Part shown: piece by piece, positions 27,282 through 62,946 of the stretch
How positions within the stretch are numbered: position 1 is the first letter of the stretch
Layout: every line of letters starts with the position of its first letter
NCBI RefSeq assembly: GCF_017873095.1
Contig: NZ_JAGGJU010000010.1
Coordinates: forward strand, 124,001-188,000
Reading direction: 5' to 3'
DNA length: 64,000 nucleotides
From: Heterorhizobium halophytocola
GTDB lineage: Bacteria > Pseudomonadota > Alphaproteobacteria > Rhizobiales > Rhizobiaceae
The notes under the pieces: generated by a model
Seen by the model: the letters and a program-made list of their open reading frames with translations, nothing else
Told to the model about the DNA's origin: nothing
Database searches by the model: none
Position numbers and translations under genes: made by a program

Positions 27282-27423
27282 CTCCGCCCCCTTTGCCTTC
27301 TGTGATTTGCGCTCGTATTGTCGAGGTATATCGCTTAGATAGTCAAGCCATGGCAAATGTCATCCATCGCGTCAATTTCGCGGCTTCCCGCCGCAGACGC
27401 ATTCCACAAACAGGGTTGTGAGT

Positions 27424-28587
27424 ATGCCGATTTTGAACCGGGCCGCCGAACTCCAGACGGATGTCACGGAGTGGCGGCGCCATCTCCATGCCAATCCGGA
27501 AATTCTCTATGACGTCGAACAGACGGCCGCCTTCGTCGAGCAGAAGCTGACCGAATTCGGCGTCGACGAGGTAGTGACCGGGATCGGGCGGACAGGGGTC
27601 GTCGGCGTCATTCGGGGCAACAAGGCGAGCACCCGCGCGATCGGCCTGCGAGCCGACATGGACGCCTTGCCGCTCGATGAGATCACCGGCAAGCCCTGGG
27701 CTTCGACGCAAAGCGGCAAGATGCATGCCTGCGGCCATGACGGGCATACGGCCATGTTGCTGGGCGCTGCGAAATACCTGGCCGAAACCCGCAATTTCGA
27801 AGGCAGCGTGATCGTCATCTTCCAGCCGGCAGAGGAAGGCGGCCGCGGCGCCGTGGCCATGATCGACGATGGCCTGATGGAGCGTTTCGGCATCGAGGAA
27901 GTCTACGGCATGCACAACATGCCCGGCATTCCACTGGGCCAGTTCGCCATCCGCAAGGGCGGCATCATGGCAGCCCCCGACAAATTCACCATCACCCTGC
28001 ACGGTCGCGGCGGCCACGGGGCGGAACCGCACAACACCATAGATCCGATCGTCGTCGGCTCGCAGATCGTCGGCGCCCTGCAGGTGATTGCCGCCCGCAA
28101 CGCGGATCCCCTGCGATCGGTCGTGGTGTCGGTCACCAAATTTCATTCGGGCACCGCCCATAACATCATTCCGGAAGACGCCGTTCTCGGCGGCACGGTG
28201 CGCACGCTCGACGAGAATGTCCGCGACCTCGCCGAAAAGCGCATCCGCGAGATCGCCGAGGGCATCGCTGCGGCCCATGGCGCCACTGTCAGCATCGACT
28301 ATGAGCGCGCCTGCCCCGTTACCAGCAACCATCCGGAAGAGACGGTCTACGCGGCCGATGCAGCGATAGAGATCGCCGGACCTGCCAATGTCGAAACCGA
28401 TGTCGATGCCAGCATGGCCGGCGAAGACTTTTCCTTCATGCTGCAGGCCCGTCCCGGCGCCTATATCTGGATCGGCAACGGCGACAGTGCCGGCCTGCAC
28501 AACCCGGCCTACGACTTCAACGACGAGGCCATTCCGCACGGCATTTCCTACTGGGTCAAGCTCGCGGAGCAGCGCCTTAAAATCTGA
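27424..28587 (+). CDS. M20D amidohydrolase (hippurate hydrolase-like)
   Basis: The 387-residue enzyme belongs to metallopeptidase family M20D. Metal-site stretches are MHACGHDGHTAMLLGAA, FQPAEEGGRGA and VYGMHNMPG. The dimerisation domain has GRGGHGAEPH. Members cleave N-acyl amino acids such as hippurate, IAA-conjugates or N-acetyl amino acids. The sequence does not choose among these. ATG 27424 is preferred; GTG 27418 is two codons upstream. It is divergent from dacA and ends about 100 bases before the split tRNA gene. Confidence 0.87.
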   Translation: MPILNRAAELQTDVTEWRRHLHANPEILYDVEQTAAFVEQKLTEFGVDEVVTGIGRTGVVGVIRGNKASTRAIGLRADMDALPLDEITGKPWASTQSGKMHACGHDGHTAMLLGAAKYLAETRNFEGSVIVIFQPAEEGGRGAVAMIDDGLMERFGIEEVYGMHNMPGIPLGQFAIRKGGIMAAPDKFTITLHGRGGHGAEPHNTIDPIVVGSQIVGALQVIAARNADPLRSVVVSVTKFHSGTAHNIIPEDAVLGGTVRTLDENVRDLAEKRIREIAEGIAAAHGATVSIDYERACPVTSNHPEETVYAADAAIEIAGPANVETDVDASMAGEDFSFMLQARPGAYIWIGNGDSAGLHNPAYDFNDEAIPHGISYWVKLAEQRLKI

Positions 28588-28684: not shown

Positions 28685-28996
28685 GTCCACGTAGCTCAGC
28701 AGGATAGAGCACAGGATTCCTAAGTGAAATTGGGGGTTGCGAGGGGAAACCACGCAATCGATCTGCTCAAAGTCGGGGAACGCTTCGCTGGGCTTCCAGC
28801 ATGCCAATCCCGAGCCAAGCGCCGGAGAAATCCGGTGAAGGTGTAGAGACTGGATGGGCAGCACCTAAAGGCCGCAAGGTCCATGGTGAAGGGACAGTCC
28901 AGACCACGAACGCCTGCCTCATAGGGCAGCGCGGCGGTGAAAGCCGAAGTGGTATGAATCCTGGGGTCGGAGGTTCGAATCCTCTCGTGGACACCA
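28685..28996 (+). tRNA. tRNA-Arg (anticodon CCU), split by a group I intron
   Basis: Exon 1 (28685-28721) and exon 2 (28957-28996) join to a 77-nt tRNA. The acceptor stem GTCCACG/CGTGGAC pairs perfectly, followed by A and an encoded CCA at 28994-28996. The D arm is GCTC/GAGC. The anticodon stem is CAGGA/TCCTG with loop TTCCTAA. The T arm is GGAGG-TTCGAAT-CCTCT. Anticodon CCT (28719-28721) reads AGG arginine codons. The intron lies directly after the third anticodon base, between positions 36 and 37. The mature tRNA requires splicing. Confidence 0.95.
28722..28956 (+). ncRNA. Group I self-splicing intron (IC3-like) in tRNA-Arg
   Basis: The 235-nt insert follows U36 of the anticodon and ends with G28956, the omega G. 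The internal guide is probably in the G-run 28732-28736, pairing with exon CCU and giving the usual U-G pair at the splice site. P2 is TTGCG (28737-28741) with CGCAA (28753-28757). P6 has CCGGA-GAAA-TCCGG. P7 is GACTG (28848-28852) with CAGTC (28895-28899). A P9 hairpin is CTGCC/GGCAG. The core (GGTGTAGAGACT, CAGTCCAGA) closely resembles the Azoarcus tRNA-Ile intron. No endonuclease is encoded. Confidence 0.95.
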
Positions 28997-30473: not shown

Positions 30474-31661
30474 ATGATGCACAATGCCTATTCCGCAGCT
30501 CCCACGCGCCTGACCGTTCTCGGCTCCACCGGATCGATCGGGGTCAACACGCTGGATGTCATCAGACATCTGGGCGGGCGCCAGCGTTTCGAAGTGATGG
30601 CATTGACCGGCAATGGCAATATCGAGCTGCTGGCCGCCCAGGCACGGGAAACAGGCGCGCAGCTTGCGGTGACCGCCGACGAAAAGCTCTATGGGGCGCT
30701 GAAAGACCGTCTGTCCGGCACATCGACGCGGGTCGCAGCCGGCCAATCCGGCCTTCAGGAAGCGGCAAGCCTGAACGCCGAATGGGTGATGGCCGCAATC
30801 GTCGGCACCGCAGGACTTGCCCCGACGCTGACCGCGGCAGCCCGCGGCGCGACGATCGCGCTGGCCAACAAGGAATGCCTCGTTTCAGCCGGCAAGCTGT
30901 TCGTCGATGCCGTGAAGTCCGGCGGCGGCAAGCTTATTCCCGTCGACAGCGAGCACAGCGCGATCTTCCAATGCCTGGAAGAGCGCCAGCGCGAAGCGGT
31001 CGAGCGCATCATCCTGACGGCATCCGGCGGCCCGTTCCGCGCCTATACGCGCGACGAGATGGCCGATGTGACCGTCGAGAAGGCCCGCGCCCATCCCAAC
31101 TGGTCGATGGGCCTGAAGATCTCGGTCGGCAGCGCCTCGATGTTCAACAAGGCGCTGGAGGTGATTGAAGCCAAGCATCTATTCGACGTGACGCCGGAGC
31201 AGATCGAGGTCGTCGTTCATCCGCAATCGGTGATCCATTCGATGGTCGGTTATGCCGATGGCGCGGTGATGGCCCAGCTCGGCAGCCCGGACATGCGGAC
31301 CGCGATCGGCTATGCGCTGACGTACCCCACGCGTCCGGCGCTTCCCGTCGAACGACTCGATTTCGCCCGCATTGCTCGCCTCGATTTCGAGGCGCCGGAC
31401 GAGACGCGGTTTCCGGCCCTCCGGCTGGCGCGGCTGGCACTGGAGCGGGGCGGACAGCAGGCCGCCATCATGAATGCGGCCGAAGAAACCGCCTTTGACG
31501 GCTTCGTCGATGGCCGCTTGCGCTTTCTTGAAATGGCGGAGATCGCCGAGGCGGTGATGGAAAGCATGACGGCCTGGCCGGACGCATCGACGATCGACGA
31601 CGTTTTTGCCGCCGATCTTGAGGCAAGACGCTTGGCGACGATCGAGATCGGCCGCCGCTGA
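30474..31661 (+). CDS. dxr: 1-deoxy-D-xylulose 5-phosphate reductoisomerase
   Basis: Dxr makes 2-C-methyl-D-erythritol 4-phosphate with NADPH, the committed step of the MEP isoprenoid pathway. The 395-residue protein has the NADPH motif LGSTGSIGVNTLDV, the metal and substrate motif PVDSEHSAIFQ, and TASGGPFR. Two adjacent ATGs (30474, 30477) both serve; the ribosome binding site is poor for either. Two in-frame starts three bases apart do not change the reading. It converges on hemA with a terminator between. Other MEP genes are not in the window. Confidence 0.95.
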   Translation: MMHNAYSAAPTRLTVLGSTGSIGVNTLDVIRHLGGRQRFEVMALTGNGNIELLAAQARETGAQLAVTADEKLYGALKDRLSGTSTRVAAGQSGLQEAASLNAEWVMAAIVGTAGLAPTLTAAARGATIALANKECLVSAGKLFVDAVKSGGGKLIPVDSEHSAIFQCLEERQREAVERIILTASGGPFRAYTRDEMADVTVEKARAHPNWSMGLKISVGSASMFNKALEVIEAKHLFDVTPEQIEVVVHPQSVIHSMVGYADGAVMAQLGSPDMRTAIGYALTYPTRPALPVERLDFARIARLDFEAPDETRFPALRLARLALERGGQQAAIMNAAEETAFDGFVDGRLRFLEMAEIAEAVMESMTAWPDASTIDDVFAADLEARRLATIEIGRR

Positions 31662-60785: not shown

Positions 60786-61940
60786 TCACTCCTTCGGCAG
60801 GGCCATGATACGGTCTGCAAGGGCTTCGAGGTCGGCGTCGGTGAGCTCGCATGCCGTCGCGCGGCGCATGGGTTGATTTTCAGGCGCCTTCATCTCGGCT
60901 GCGAGATCCTCGGCGGCGAATTGGCTAAAGACGGGCGGCAAGGCACGGCGGATACCGCATCGATCCATCAACTGTGCGACGAAATCCGGCAGTTCGGCTG
61001 TGCTGCGCAATCCGCAGACGCTGGCGGCCGCCTCGAGCGCCGGCGTCGGCTCCTCGCAAAGCCAGGCGATCGTCGCCTCGAAGCCGAGTGCCGTTGCCAG
61101 ACCGTGATGAACCGGCCCGAGCCCGGCCAGCGCATGGCTGACATTGTGGGCAATCGCCGTTCCGCAATTATCGATGGCGATACCGGCAAGACAGGAGCCG
61201 ACCAGCATGGCTTCCCGGGCGACGAGATCGTCGGGTGCGGACACCGCCCGCTCCAGATTGGCCGCGATCAACCGCATCGCCTGGTGGCCATAGACCTGCG
61301 CACCGGCATGGGTATTGCGGTTGGTCGAGGCCTCGAAGGCATGGATAAACGCATCTAGCCCGCACCATGCCGTCAGATGGGCCGGCAGGGAGACTGTGAG
61401 TTCCGCATCGAGGATTACCGCATCGGCCTTGGTTTCCGGCCCCCAGATCCAGAGCTTCTTGCCGGTCGGACCAGAGAAGATGTTTGTCGCCGAGGTCTCC
61501 GAACCGGTTCCGGCCGTCGTCGGCACCATAATCTTCAGGAGCGGCGCTGTCGGCAGGGGATGCGCGGCCAAGGCATAGTGCATCGGATCTTTACCGGAGA
61601 CTGCCGTGCAGGCAGTGATCTTGGCGATGTCGAGTGCCGATCCGCCACCGATGCCGATCACGGCCCTTGCCCCTTCGGCAGCCGCCTGCGCCGCGCGCAG
61701 ATGGGCGATCTTCGGTTCGCCGGCAAAATCGCTGAACAGCCGCGCCTCGATGCCGCGCTTGGCAAGCGCTGCGCGCACCAGGTCACCGATGCCATTGCCG
61801 TCGAGGAAGGTGTCGATGACGAGCAGCAGCGGTCCCGCGCCTGCCTTGGCAGCGACAACGTCGGCAAGCTTGGCGAGTGTGCCGGACCCCACGTGAATCT
61901 CGGGTATGGATGAGAGGCAATAGCTCAAGGTCTGCTCCAT
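60786..61940 (-). CDS. Iron-containing alcohol dehydrogenase
   Basis: The 384-residue enzyme has GIGGGSALDIAKI, PTTAGTGSETS and metal-ligand stretches AFIHAFEAST and GPVHHGLATALG, the marks of group III alcohol dehydrogenases. Such enzymes use Fe2+ or Zn2+ and act on diols, lactaldehyde or maleylacetate. It is the first gene of the cluster, divergent from the LysR gene. ATG 61940 (MEQTLSYC) is used. Substrate is open. Confidence 0.84.
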   Translation of the reverse strand: MEQTLSYCLSSIPEIHVGSGTLAKLADVVAAKAGAGPLLLVIDTFLDGNGIGDLVRAALAKRGIEARLFSDFAGEPKIAHLRAAQAAAEGARAVIGIGGGSALDIAKITACTAVSGKDPMHYALAAHPLPTAPLLKIMVPTTAGTGSETSATNIFSGPTGKKLWIWGPETKADAVILDAELTVSLPAHLTAWCGLDAFIHAFEASTNRNTHAGAQVYGHQAMRLIAANLERAVSAPDDLVAREAMLVGSCLAGIAIDNCGTAIAHNVSHALAGLGPVHHGLATALGFEATIAWLCEEPTPALEAAASVCGLRSTAELPDFVAQLMDRCGIRRALPPVFSQFAAEDLAAEMKAPENQPMRRATACELTDADLEALADRIMALPKE

Positions 61941-62013
61941 CGGCTGCGCGTTGATGCCCCATCCTCCACGACAATGCCAGCTATTCAAATATAGTGATTT
62001 CTAGGCTAGTTTG

Positions 62014-62028
62014 ATGATCTGAGATCAT
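62014..62028. promoter_or_regulatory. 15-bp palindrome before the LysR gene
   Basis: ATGATCT-G-AGATCAT is a perfect palindrome that ends 12 bases before the TTG start and just upstream of the likely ribosome binding site. It also lies in the shared region with the alcohol dehydrogenase gene. An autoregulatory site is likely; a LysR T-N11-A reading is possible. Confidence 0.5.
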
Positions 62029-62040
62029 GGAGAAGGCGAT

Positions 62041-62946
62041 TTGCTCGACAAGATACCGCTGGAAGCGTTCCGCGTTTTCGATGCCGCCGCGCGGTTCATG
62101 AATTTCTCCAGGGCAGGGCGCGAACTTAATATCACCCAGGCAGCCGTATCCCGCCGCATCAAACTGCTCGAAGAGCATCTGGGCCGGGCGCTGTTTACCC
62201 GGCGCGGGCGCAATCTGGCGCTGACTGCCGACGGTGAAAAACTGTTCCAGCGGATAAGGGCCATGCTCGAATATCTGGAGGAGAGCATCGAGCCGTTTCT
62301 CAGCAAGACGTCGCCGACCGTCTCGATCGCCGCCAGCGGATCGATCTCCCACCTGTGGCTCGGGCACCGGCTGAAGAATTTCGCCAAACAGTCGCCGGAA
62401 CTGACGATTCGGCTGATGACGACCGACAGTCCACTGGAACTGGCCGCGGAGACGAACGACCTCGTCATTCTCTACTCCACCGGCGAACATCCGCGGTGGC
62501 ACCTGACCCTTCTCCTGCCGGAGGAATTGATCCCGGTCGCCTCCCCTGCCTATCTCGAGCAGCGCGGCCTCGACCCGCAGACGCTGACCGGAAATGACAT
62601 CGCCGGCCTCGACCTGATCGACTACGAGCGTTTCAATGCGCACTGGATCTCCTATCGCCAGTGGTTTTCGCGTCTGGCGTCACCGCCGACCCGCAAGCCG
62701 GCGCGGCCGCGCCTGTCGTTCTCGACCTATGCCATGGCAATCGCCGCCGCCGTCGATGGCGACGGCGTGGCACTGGGCAGCGTCGCGATGCTTGCCGCCC
62801 AGATAGAGCGGGGCGAACTCGTCCCGCTCGGCAAGGAGACGGTGCAGTCCGGCTATGGCTATTATCTCGGCCTGCCCCGCTACAGAACGGTCGAGCCCCA
62901 TGCCTTGCGGCTGCACCAGCATCTTCTGTCCGAGACGCCGGCATAG
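62041..62946 (+). CDS. LysR-family regulator, GcvA-like
   Basis: The 301-residue protein has a GcvA-type N-terminus (LEAFRVFDAAARFMNFSRAG, LNITQAAVSRRIKLLEEHLG) and a LysR effector domain. It is divergent from the alcohol dehydrogenase-aldehyde dehydrogenase-dehydratase genes and so probably controls them. The start is TTG 62041 with GGAG upstream. A palindrome covers the region just before it. A terminator shared with atpC follows. Confidence 0.86.
   Translation: MLDKIPLEAFRVFDAAARFMNFSRAGRELNITQAAVSRRIKLLEEHLGRALFTRRGRNLALTADGEKLFQRIRAMLEYLEESIEPFLSKTSPTVSIAASGSISHLWLGHRLKNFAKQSPELTIRLMTTDSPLELAAETNDLVILYSTGEHPRWHLTLLLPEELIPVASPAYLEQRGLDPQTLTGNDIAGLDLIDYERFNAHWISYRQWFSRLASPPTRKPARPRLSFSTYAMAIAAAVDGDGVALGSVAMLAAQIERGELVPLGKETVQSGYGYYLGLPRYRTVEPHALRLHQHLLSETPA

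Follow-up and report, generated by a model that had tools for sequence, protein, structure and literature searches.

Group I introns in the tRNA-Arg(CCU) genes of alphaproteobacteria were described in Agrobacterium by Reinhold-Hurek and Shub (1992, cited in PMC7717549), and a later paper by Paquin, Heinfling and Shub (1999, cited in PMC7717549) names sporadic distribution, horizontal transmission and transposition in its title. The intron BbgpI of Bartonella bacilliformis, a member of the same family, is described as self-splicing both in vivo and in vitro, and the tRNA gene that it splits had also gone unannotated (PMC7717549). Crystal structures exist for the tRNA-Ile intron of Azoarcus, and IC3 appears in a title (PMC3984707). 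The locus examined here is a tRNA-Arg(CCU) gene of Heterorhizobium halophytocola that is interrupted by a 235-nt intron and lies in a window of 64,000 nucleotides, the whole stretch of DNA that was analysed (NZ_JAGGJU010000010.1, positions 124,001–188,000). In family and function this intron is very probably a group I intron of the alphaproteobacterial tRNA-Arg(CCU) family. Comparison of sequences makes the membership clear, as the tRNA is the same, the insertion site follows the anticodon and the introns are kin; the sporadic distribution is also shared. The intron itself is no novelty, but an ordinary added member of a known family in a further host. Compared with the tRNA-Arg(CCU) introns as presented in the cited work, this one stands out by its new host, by exon differences that accompany the intron and by the carrier element seen in relatives. 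BbgpI belongs to another genus and no element context is given in the passages that describe it (PMC7717549), while the Azoarcus intron resides in a different tRNA and in another bacterial class. The carrier elements in relatives, which offer a possible new route of spread, are the part that deserves attention, rather than the intron itself.

The 5′ exon (28,685–28,721, 37 nt, on the + strand like all features given below) ends with U36, the last base of the anticodon, and is followed by the IC3-like intron (28,722–28,956), which ends in a G at 28,956, and by the 3′ exon with its encoded CCA (28,957–28,996, 40 nt). The insert is placed between tRNA bases 36 and 37, directly after the anticodon, and the joined exons gave a 77-nt tRNA-Arg(cct) complete with encoded CCA in the ARAGORN fold. 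This layout had been proposed in a previous sequence-only reading of the window and was confirmed by ARAGORN in intron mode, which called a split gene and placed its 235-nt intron after position 37. The default ARAGORN run over the whole window reported no tRNA, a search with a general tRNA model did not report the split gene, and an Rfam search at the gathering score did not reach RF00028 for the window intron, showing that common tools can overlook such tRNAs. Four plasmid or phage relatives of the intron were also missed by Rfam at the gathering score.

The group I identity of the insert was examined using two covariance models. The Rfam Group I model RF00028, a search that the sequence-only reading had proposed, gave a match at E 8e-6 in a 501-base search, with a score of 29.9 bits that falls below the gathering score of 50. 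Two other Rfam matches, to twister-sister (E 9.7) and to HPnc0260 (E 0.13, antisense across the 3′ exon), were put down to chance or overlap with the tRNA. A second model was built from the intron cores of other tRNA genes, which made the test independent of the tRNA-Arg(CCU) introns. Cores were extracted from 19 of 20 loci and 15 of these were used, comprising 13 loci from genomes of the order, one Bradyrhizobium plasmid and one Gordonia phage. This model matched positions 28,761–28,905 with 121.9 bits (E 5e-29 in 64 kb), a score that rests partly on plain sequence because the automatic structure of the model was non-canonical and lacked P7. No other match in the window was found up to E 10, and across the genome the window intron was the only match at E 0.001 (150 of 3015 first-look candidates were scored). 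The IC3-like intron is therefore kin to introns in other tRNAs by the match to this model, and its group I identity is borne out by both searches together with the structure of 34 sequences described below. The proposed kinship to the Agrobacterium intron was likewise upheld, with 91% identity between the window intron and that of an Agrobacterium leguminum genome.

The secondary structure was assessed on an alignment of 34 tRNA-Arg(CCU) introns with flanking exon bases, on which a P1–P10 structure drawn on the window was imposed. The alignment was derived from 134 loci, 89 of which fitted the exon pattern (45 did not) and were reduced to 56 by clustering at 88% and then to 34. The 63 pairs of this structure were formed in 96.6% of cases across the 34 introns, with changes on both sides at 29 of the 63 pairs, and the window sequence contained no non-standard pair among them. 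None of 500 shuffles equalled any of the measures, versions of the structure slid along the alignment paired at 29–43%, and RNAalifold unaided gave compensated changes in 32 of 69 pairs. P1 is formed by exon bases CCU (28,719–28,721) with the internal guide GGG (28,732–28,734), placing a U.G pair at the 5′ splice site in 34 of 34 sequences; as P1 never varies it carries no covariation evidence. P10 (28,729–28,731 with 28,957–28,959 of exon 2) was paired in 97.1% of cells. Double changes were observed at six of seven pairs in P2 (28,735–28,741 with 28,753–28,759), at two of six in P3 (28,763–28,768 with 28,856–28,861; 100% paired), at seven of seven in P6a (28,820–28,837, with a GAAA loop at 28,827–28,830; 90% paired), at two of four in P8 (28,862–28,865 with 28,885–28,888), at four of four in its inner helix P8a and at two of five in P9 (28,903–28,907 with 28,949–28,953). 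P7 (GACTG 28,848–28,852 with CAGTC 28,895–28,899) was 100% paired with a double change at one of five pairs, in one sequence, and P4 (28,773–28,777 with 28,809–28,813) was invariant and uninformative either way. Covariation thus supports P2, P3, P6a and P8. The drawn P9b departs from the RNAalifold version, which weakens P9b alone.

The P2, P6a, P7, P9 and terminal G elements named by the sequence-only reading could all be read in the window, and the catalytic core of P3–P8 and P4–P6 with P7 was present both in the 34-intron structure and in the model match. The order of P3–P8 and P7 is presumably common to the Azoarcus tRNA-Ile intron. Both the U.G pair at the 5′ splice site and the terminal G are present in the window; since a terminal G was demanded of the relatives by the selection pattern, only the G of the window counts as an observation. 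The precursor would be expected to fold so that guanosine attacks at U36, after which the exons would be joined via P1/P10 and the 3′-terminal G, releasing the 77-nt tRNA. Splicing in the strain of the window can be inferred from the site, the structure and the homology to a family with a splicing member.

Whether the tRNA has to be spliced was considered from the other tRNAs of the genome. The sequence-only reading held that the only tRNA reading AGG would depend on splicing and that the intron is under strong selection or needs host help. Within the assembly, which is 99.39% complete, no second CCU tRNA was found (an anticodon was assigned to every one of 40 uninterrupted tRNA matches), so the gene is indeed the only CCU gene found, but the claim was overstated: an intact tRNA-Arg(UCU) is present (L020), and AGG accounts for three of 188 arginine codons in seven window open reading frames picked as likely genes. 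The tRNA-Arg(UCU) species of other bacteria read AGG by wobble, and the one present here may do likewise. With tRNA-Arg(UCU) present and AGG rare, strong selection on the intron is not established. The same two observations would suit an intron that has decayed or is left unspliced, with AGG being read by tRNA-Arg(UCU) alone; the intact set of 63 pairs and the folding of the exons as a complete tRNA make this most improbable. The tRNA-Ile(GAU) and tRNA-Ala(UGC) genes were not among the 40 tRNA matches of this genome (G000), probably due to rRNA operons missing from the draft.

A survey of the genus revealed two different tRNA bodies at one locus. The tRNA query matched all 63 genus genomes, of which three carried the intron (that of the window and those labelled G026 and G059), while each of the other 60 contained an intact intronless tRNA-Arg(CCU). 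The gene upstream of the window tRNA (27,418–28,587), which from its sequence is taken to encode an M20-type amidohydrolase, was found in the same position in G026, in G059 and in 59 intronless genomes; the stretch from the remaining one (L361) is cut by the contig start and is missing from the tree of this gene. The intronless tRNAs had a GGTCCCG/GGTTCCG body in 60 of 60 cases, whereas the carriers had another body (GTCCACG or GTCCACA) in which the acceptor, anticodon and T stems all differ. The intronless copy of the genus was matched at full length and 100% identity in three other genera, and many of 121 family genomes gave full-length matches to it at 82–97%, which include other arginine tRNAs. 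That the exons differ together with the intron, as sequence comparison indicates here, is a point that the sequence-only reading missed, along with the integrative elements in relatives.

In a tree of the M20-type gene with 69 rows, ten of them intron carriers, the carriers were scattered and firm branches forced at least four changes. G026 grouped with the intronless G007 (100/92) and G059 with the intronless G014 and G051 (100/99), while the position of the window was unresolved. As the bodies differ together with the intron and the carriers are scattered in this tree, it seems that the whole tRNA gene was exchanged, more than once, while the neighbouring gene kept its own history. Classical homing of the intron, or its reverse splicing into a resident tRNA, would be in keeping with the conserved site and U.G/P1 pairing and with the occurrence of related introns in tRNA-Leu and tRNA-Lys, among others. 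This is nevertheless very unlikely, as intron-bearing and intronless tRNA bodies differ far outside the anticodon loop. Furthermore, no open reading frame of at least 60 amino acids lies wholly within the intron; frames of this size do overlap it, but the five that were compared with Pfam at E 0.1 matched no family, giving no sign of a homing endonuclease.

The two other carriers of the genus suggest how an intron-bearing tRNA may enter the locus. G026 and the intronless G007 are 86–100% alike (in 50-base bins) up to base 29 of the resident tRNA, with one mismatch inside the tRNA, and then diverge; the remainder of the resident tRNA, from base 23, was found 25.7 kb further on together with the downstream flank. 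In G059 this stub and this 3′ part recur on two separate contigs. A complete intron-bearing tRNA sits about 140 nt inside the left terminus of the element, which has the form TTTARGGG...TTACCG or near and is followed by a second GGTAA-TTACC site. This terminus is common to G026, G059, Rhizobium sp. Root1220 (L214), uncultured Rhizobium (L177 in genome G711 and L189 in G660) and G382, so that five lineages share stub, terminus and intron tRNA, with G382 belonging to another family; in uncultured Rhizobium the intron tRNA lies 3.2 kb from the stub. A stub-pattern search that was blind to the intron gave two of 394 family genomes (G660 and G711), and allowing one mismatch gave matches in seven of 397 order genomes, of which one was judged real (G382). 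The six others had no tRNA context and were rejected. In G660, G711 and G382 the stub was followed by an intron-bearing tRNA in three of three cases.

The gene content of these elements resembles that of Gamma-Mobile-Trio (GMT) islands, which are mobile and rich in defence genes (Mahata 2024, cited in PMC12715929 and PMC12259885). The G026 element encodes a GmtZ-like recombinase (271 bits, cut-off 600) and a GmtY-like recombinase in two overlapping frames (181 bits, cut-off 340), and G382 encodes both in single frames near its tRNA (260 and 228 bits against the same cut-offs). As the GmtY model also weakly matched nine of nine genomes and 11 of 14 controls, only the strong matches in G026 and G382 were counted. 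A third protein is common to G026 and G382 (42% identity), with a match also beside the G059 tRNA, and matched no NCBIfam model; GmtX is presumably the name of the third Gamma-Mobile-Trio protein. The G026 cargo comprises PtuAB-like (best PADLOC models PDC-M01A/B), Hachiman (HamA, HamB) and Gabija (GajA, GajB) systems, and in G382 HyoA lies beside the trio with a score above its cut-off. These GMT-like defence islands in tRNA-Arg(CCU) were located at G026:C1:4383567-4409229 (L374, L423) and at G382:C70 from about 6600 (L446); the right end of the G382 element was looked for and not found. Distant matches to GmtZ and the third protein also occurred beside the intron-bearing tRNA-Arg(CCU) of Rhizobium mayense (L204) and Phyllobacterium trifolii (L104), in which a pattern search gave no stub.

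The elements of the relatives therefore share GmtY- and GmtZ-like proteins and defence cargo with Gamma-Mobile-Trio islands as the citing papers outline them, but they are alphaproteobacterial, score below the curated cut-offs, occupy tRNA-Arg(CCU) and bring a tRNA to substitute for it. They appear to work like such islands and are called GMT-like; membership is not claimed. A second described parallel is tRNA-dependent lysogeny, in which a host tRNA is broken and a tRNA of the same isotype is supplied (PMC10865867). The sequences of G026 and G059 show the same combination of a cut resident tRNA and a same-isotype tRNA on the element. The lysogeny concerns temperate phages of mycobacteria and other actinobacteria, with no intron mentioned in the abstract (PMC10865867), whereas the relatives here contain GMT-like islands with an intron tRNA. 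The combination of an element with an intron-bearing rescue tRNA was not found in literature searches limited to open-licence papers. In several relatives the exchange seems to have come with GMT-like integrative elements that cut the resident tRNA-Arg(CCU) in two on insertion and carry an intron-bearing tRNA just inside one end, and this tRNA looks like a rescue tRNA with the intron as a hitchhiker. Resident tRNAs divided in this way, each with an intron-bearing stand-in on the element, provide a concrete and testable route of intron spread.

The exons of the window tRNA are of a different lineage from the tRNAs of the other genus members, so the resident gene seems to have been replaced by this whole gene with its intron. 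These exons are identical to those on the G026 element, and the intron groups with Agrobacterium, Neorhizobium galegae and the G026 and L177 element introns with weak to moderate support. That the window copy is a settled descendant of an element-type replacement is put forward tentatively, with a likelihood a little short of even. Several observations weigh against it. Support within Rhizobiaceae is weak in the intron tree; five lineages with the element are few, and for most of them the search had begun with intron carriers; the GmtY and GmtZ matches lie under the curated cut-offs, with the GmtY model matching widely; and GmtZ was not found in G059, whose element extends past the ends of both contigs, or in G660 and G711, in which part of the element was read. 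The window locus has no stub, terminus or GMT gene and its genome has no GmtZ match, so for this copy the route can be inferred rather than demonstrated. Compared with 326 loci at E 1e-3, neither of the spacers flanking the window tRNA gave a match, in contrast to the neighbouring gene that served as a control.

Alternatively, the intron tRNA could be ancestral in the family, with most of the genus having swapped to an intronless tRNA and the window having kept the old allele. The intron is widespread in alphaproteobacteria (at least 119 stretches), six Agrobacterium loci hold the intron tRNA beside the same M20-type gene with no stub found, and the unresolved place of the window in the tree of that gene would also allow such vertical inheritance. 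In G026 and G059, however, the direction is the opposite, with an element that brings the intron form breaking a resident intronless tRNA. The occurrence of tRNAs identical to the intronless genus copy in three other genera also argues against an ancestral intron, as does the window intron being nearest to Agrobacterium while the neighbouring gene is nearest to intronless members of the genus. Old vertical descent is a real alternative to element-type replacement, though held somewhat less likely. A broader version of the replacement scenario would regard intron-bearing tRNA-Arg(CCU) genes in general as rescue tRNAs of defence islands that destroy the host tRNA-Arg(CCU), with the window holding a settled copy after loss of the island. 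Hitchhiking on islands would explain the sporadic distribution of the intron, which may even shield the rescue gene, since it interrupts the target some ten bases away from where the element inserts and could allow the gene to escape attack. Taken as a whole, this wider scenario is speculative and somewhat unlikely.

Downstream of the tRNA the window contains a gene presumed to be 1-deoxyxylulose-phosphate reductoisomerase-like (30,474–31,661). Related introns were also observed on plasmids and in phages. Plasmid pCTX-M3 (NC_004464.2, about 61823-62121; L042:2464-2762) contains a complete-looking unannotated tRNA, read by eye as tRNA-Leu(UAA) and labelled Stop(tta) by ARAGORN, with a related group I intron that is 73.4% identical over the aligned part and lies about 0.65 kb from aac(3)-IId; 1272 plasmid records matched, mostly enterobacterial, of which this one was inspected. 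One Bradyrhizobium plasmid has a tRNA-Leu(taa) with a related intron. A 2014 review states that the phage introns observed until then were all in protein-coding genes (PMC3984707). In intron mode ARAGORN gave unannotated tRNA-Lys and tRNA-Leu genes with related group I introns in Gordonia phage Daredevil (L044:2420-2731) and Agrobacterium phage Atu_ph07 (L045:2379-2740), respectively. The intron core was also present in 118 IMG/VR stretches (L223-L340), some contigs of which may be prophages or bacterial; ARAGORN in intron mode gave no tRNA in 46 of these, and tRNA-Arg(UCU) was its commonest call among the others; nine of the stretches were read by eye.
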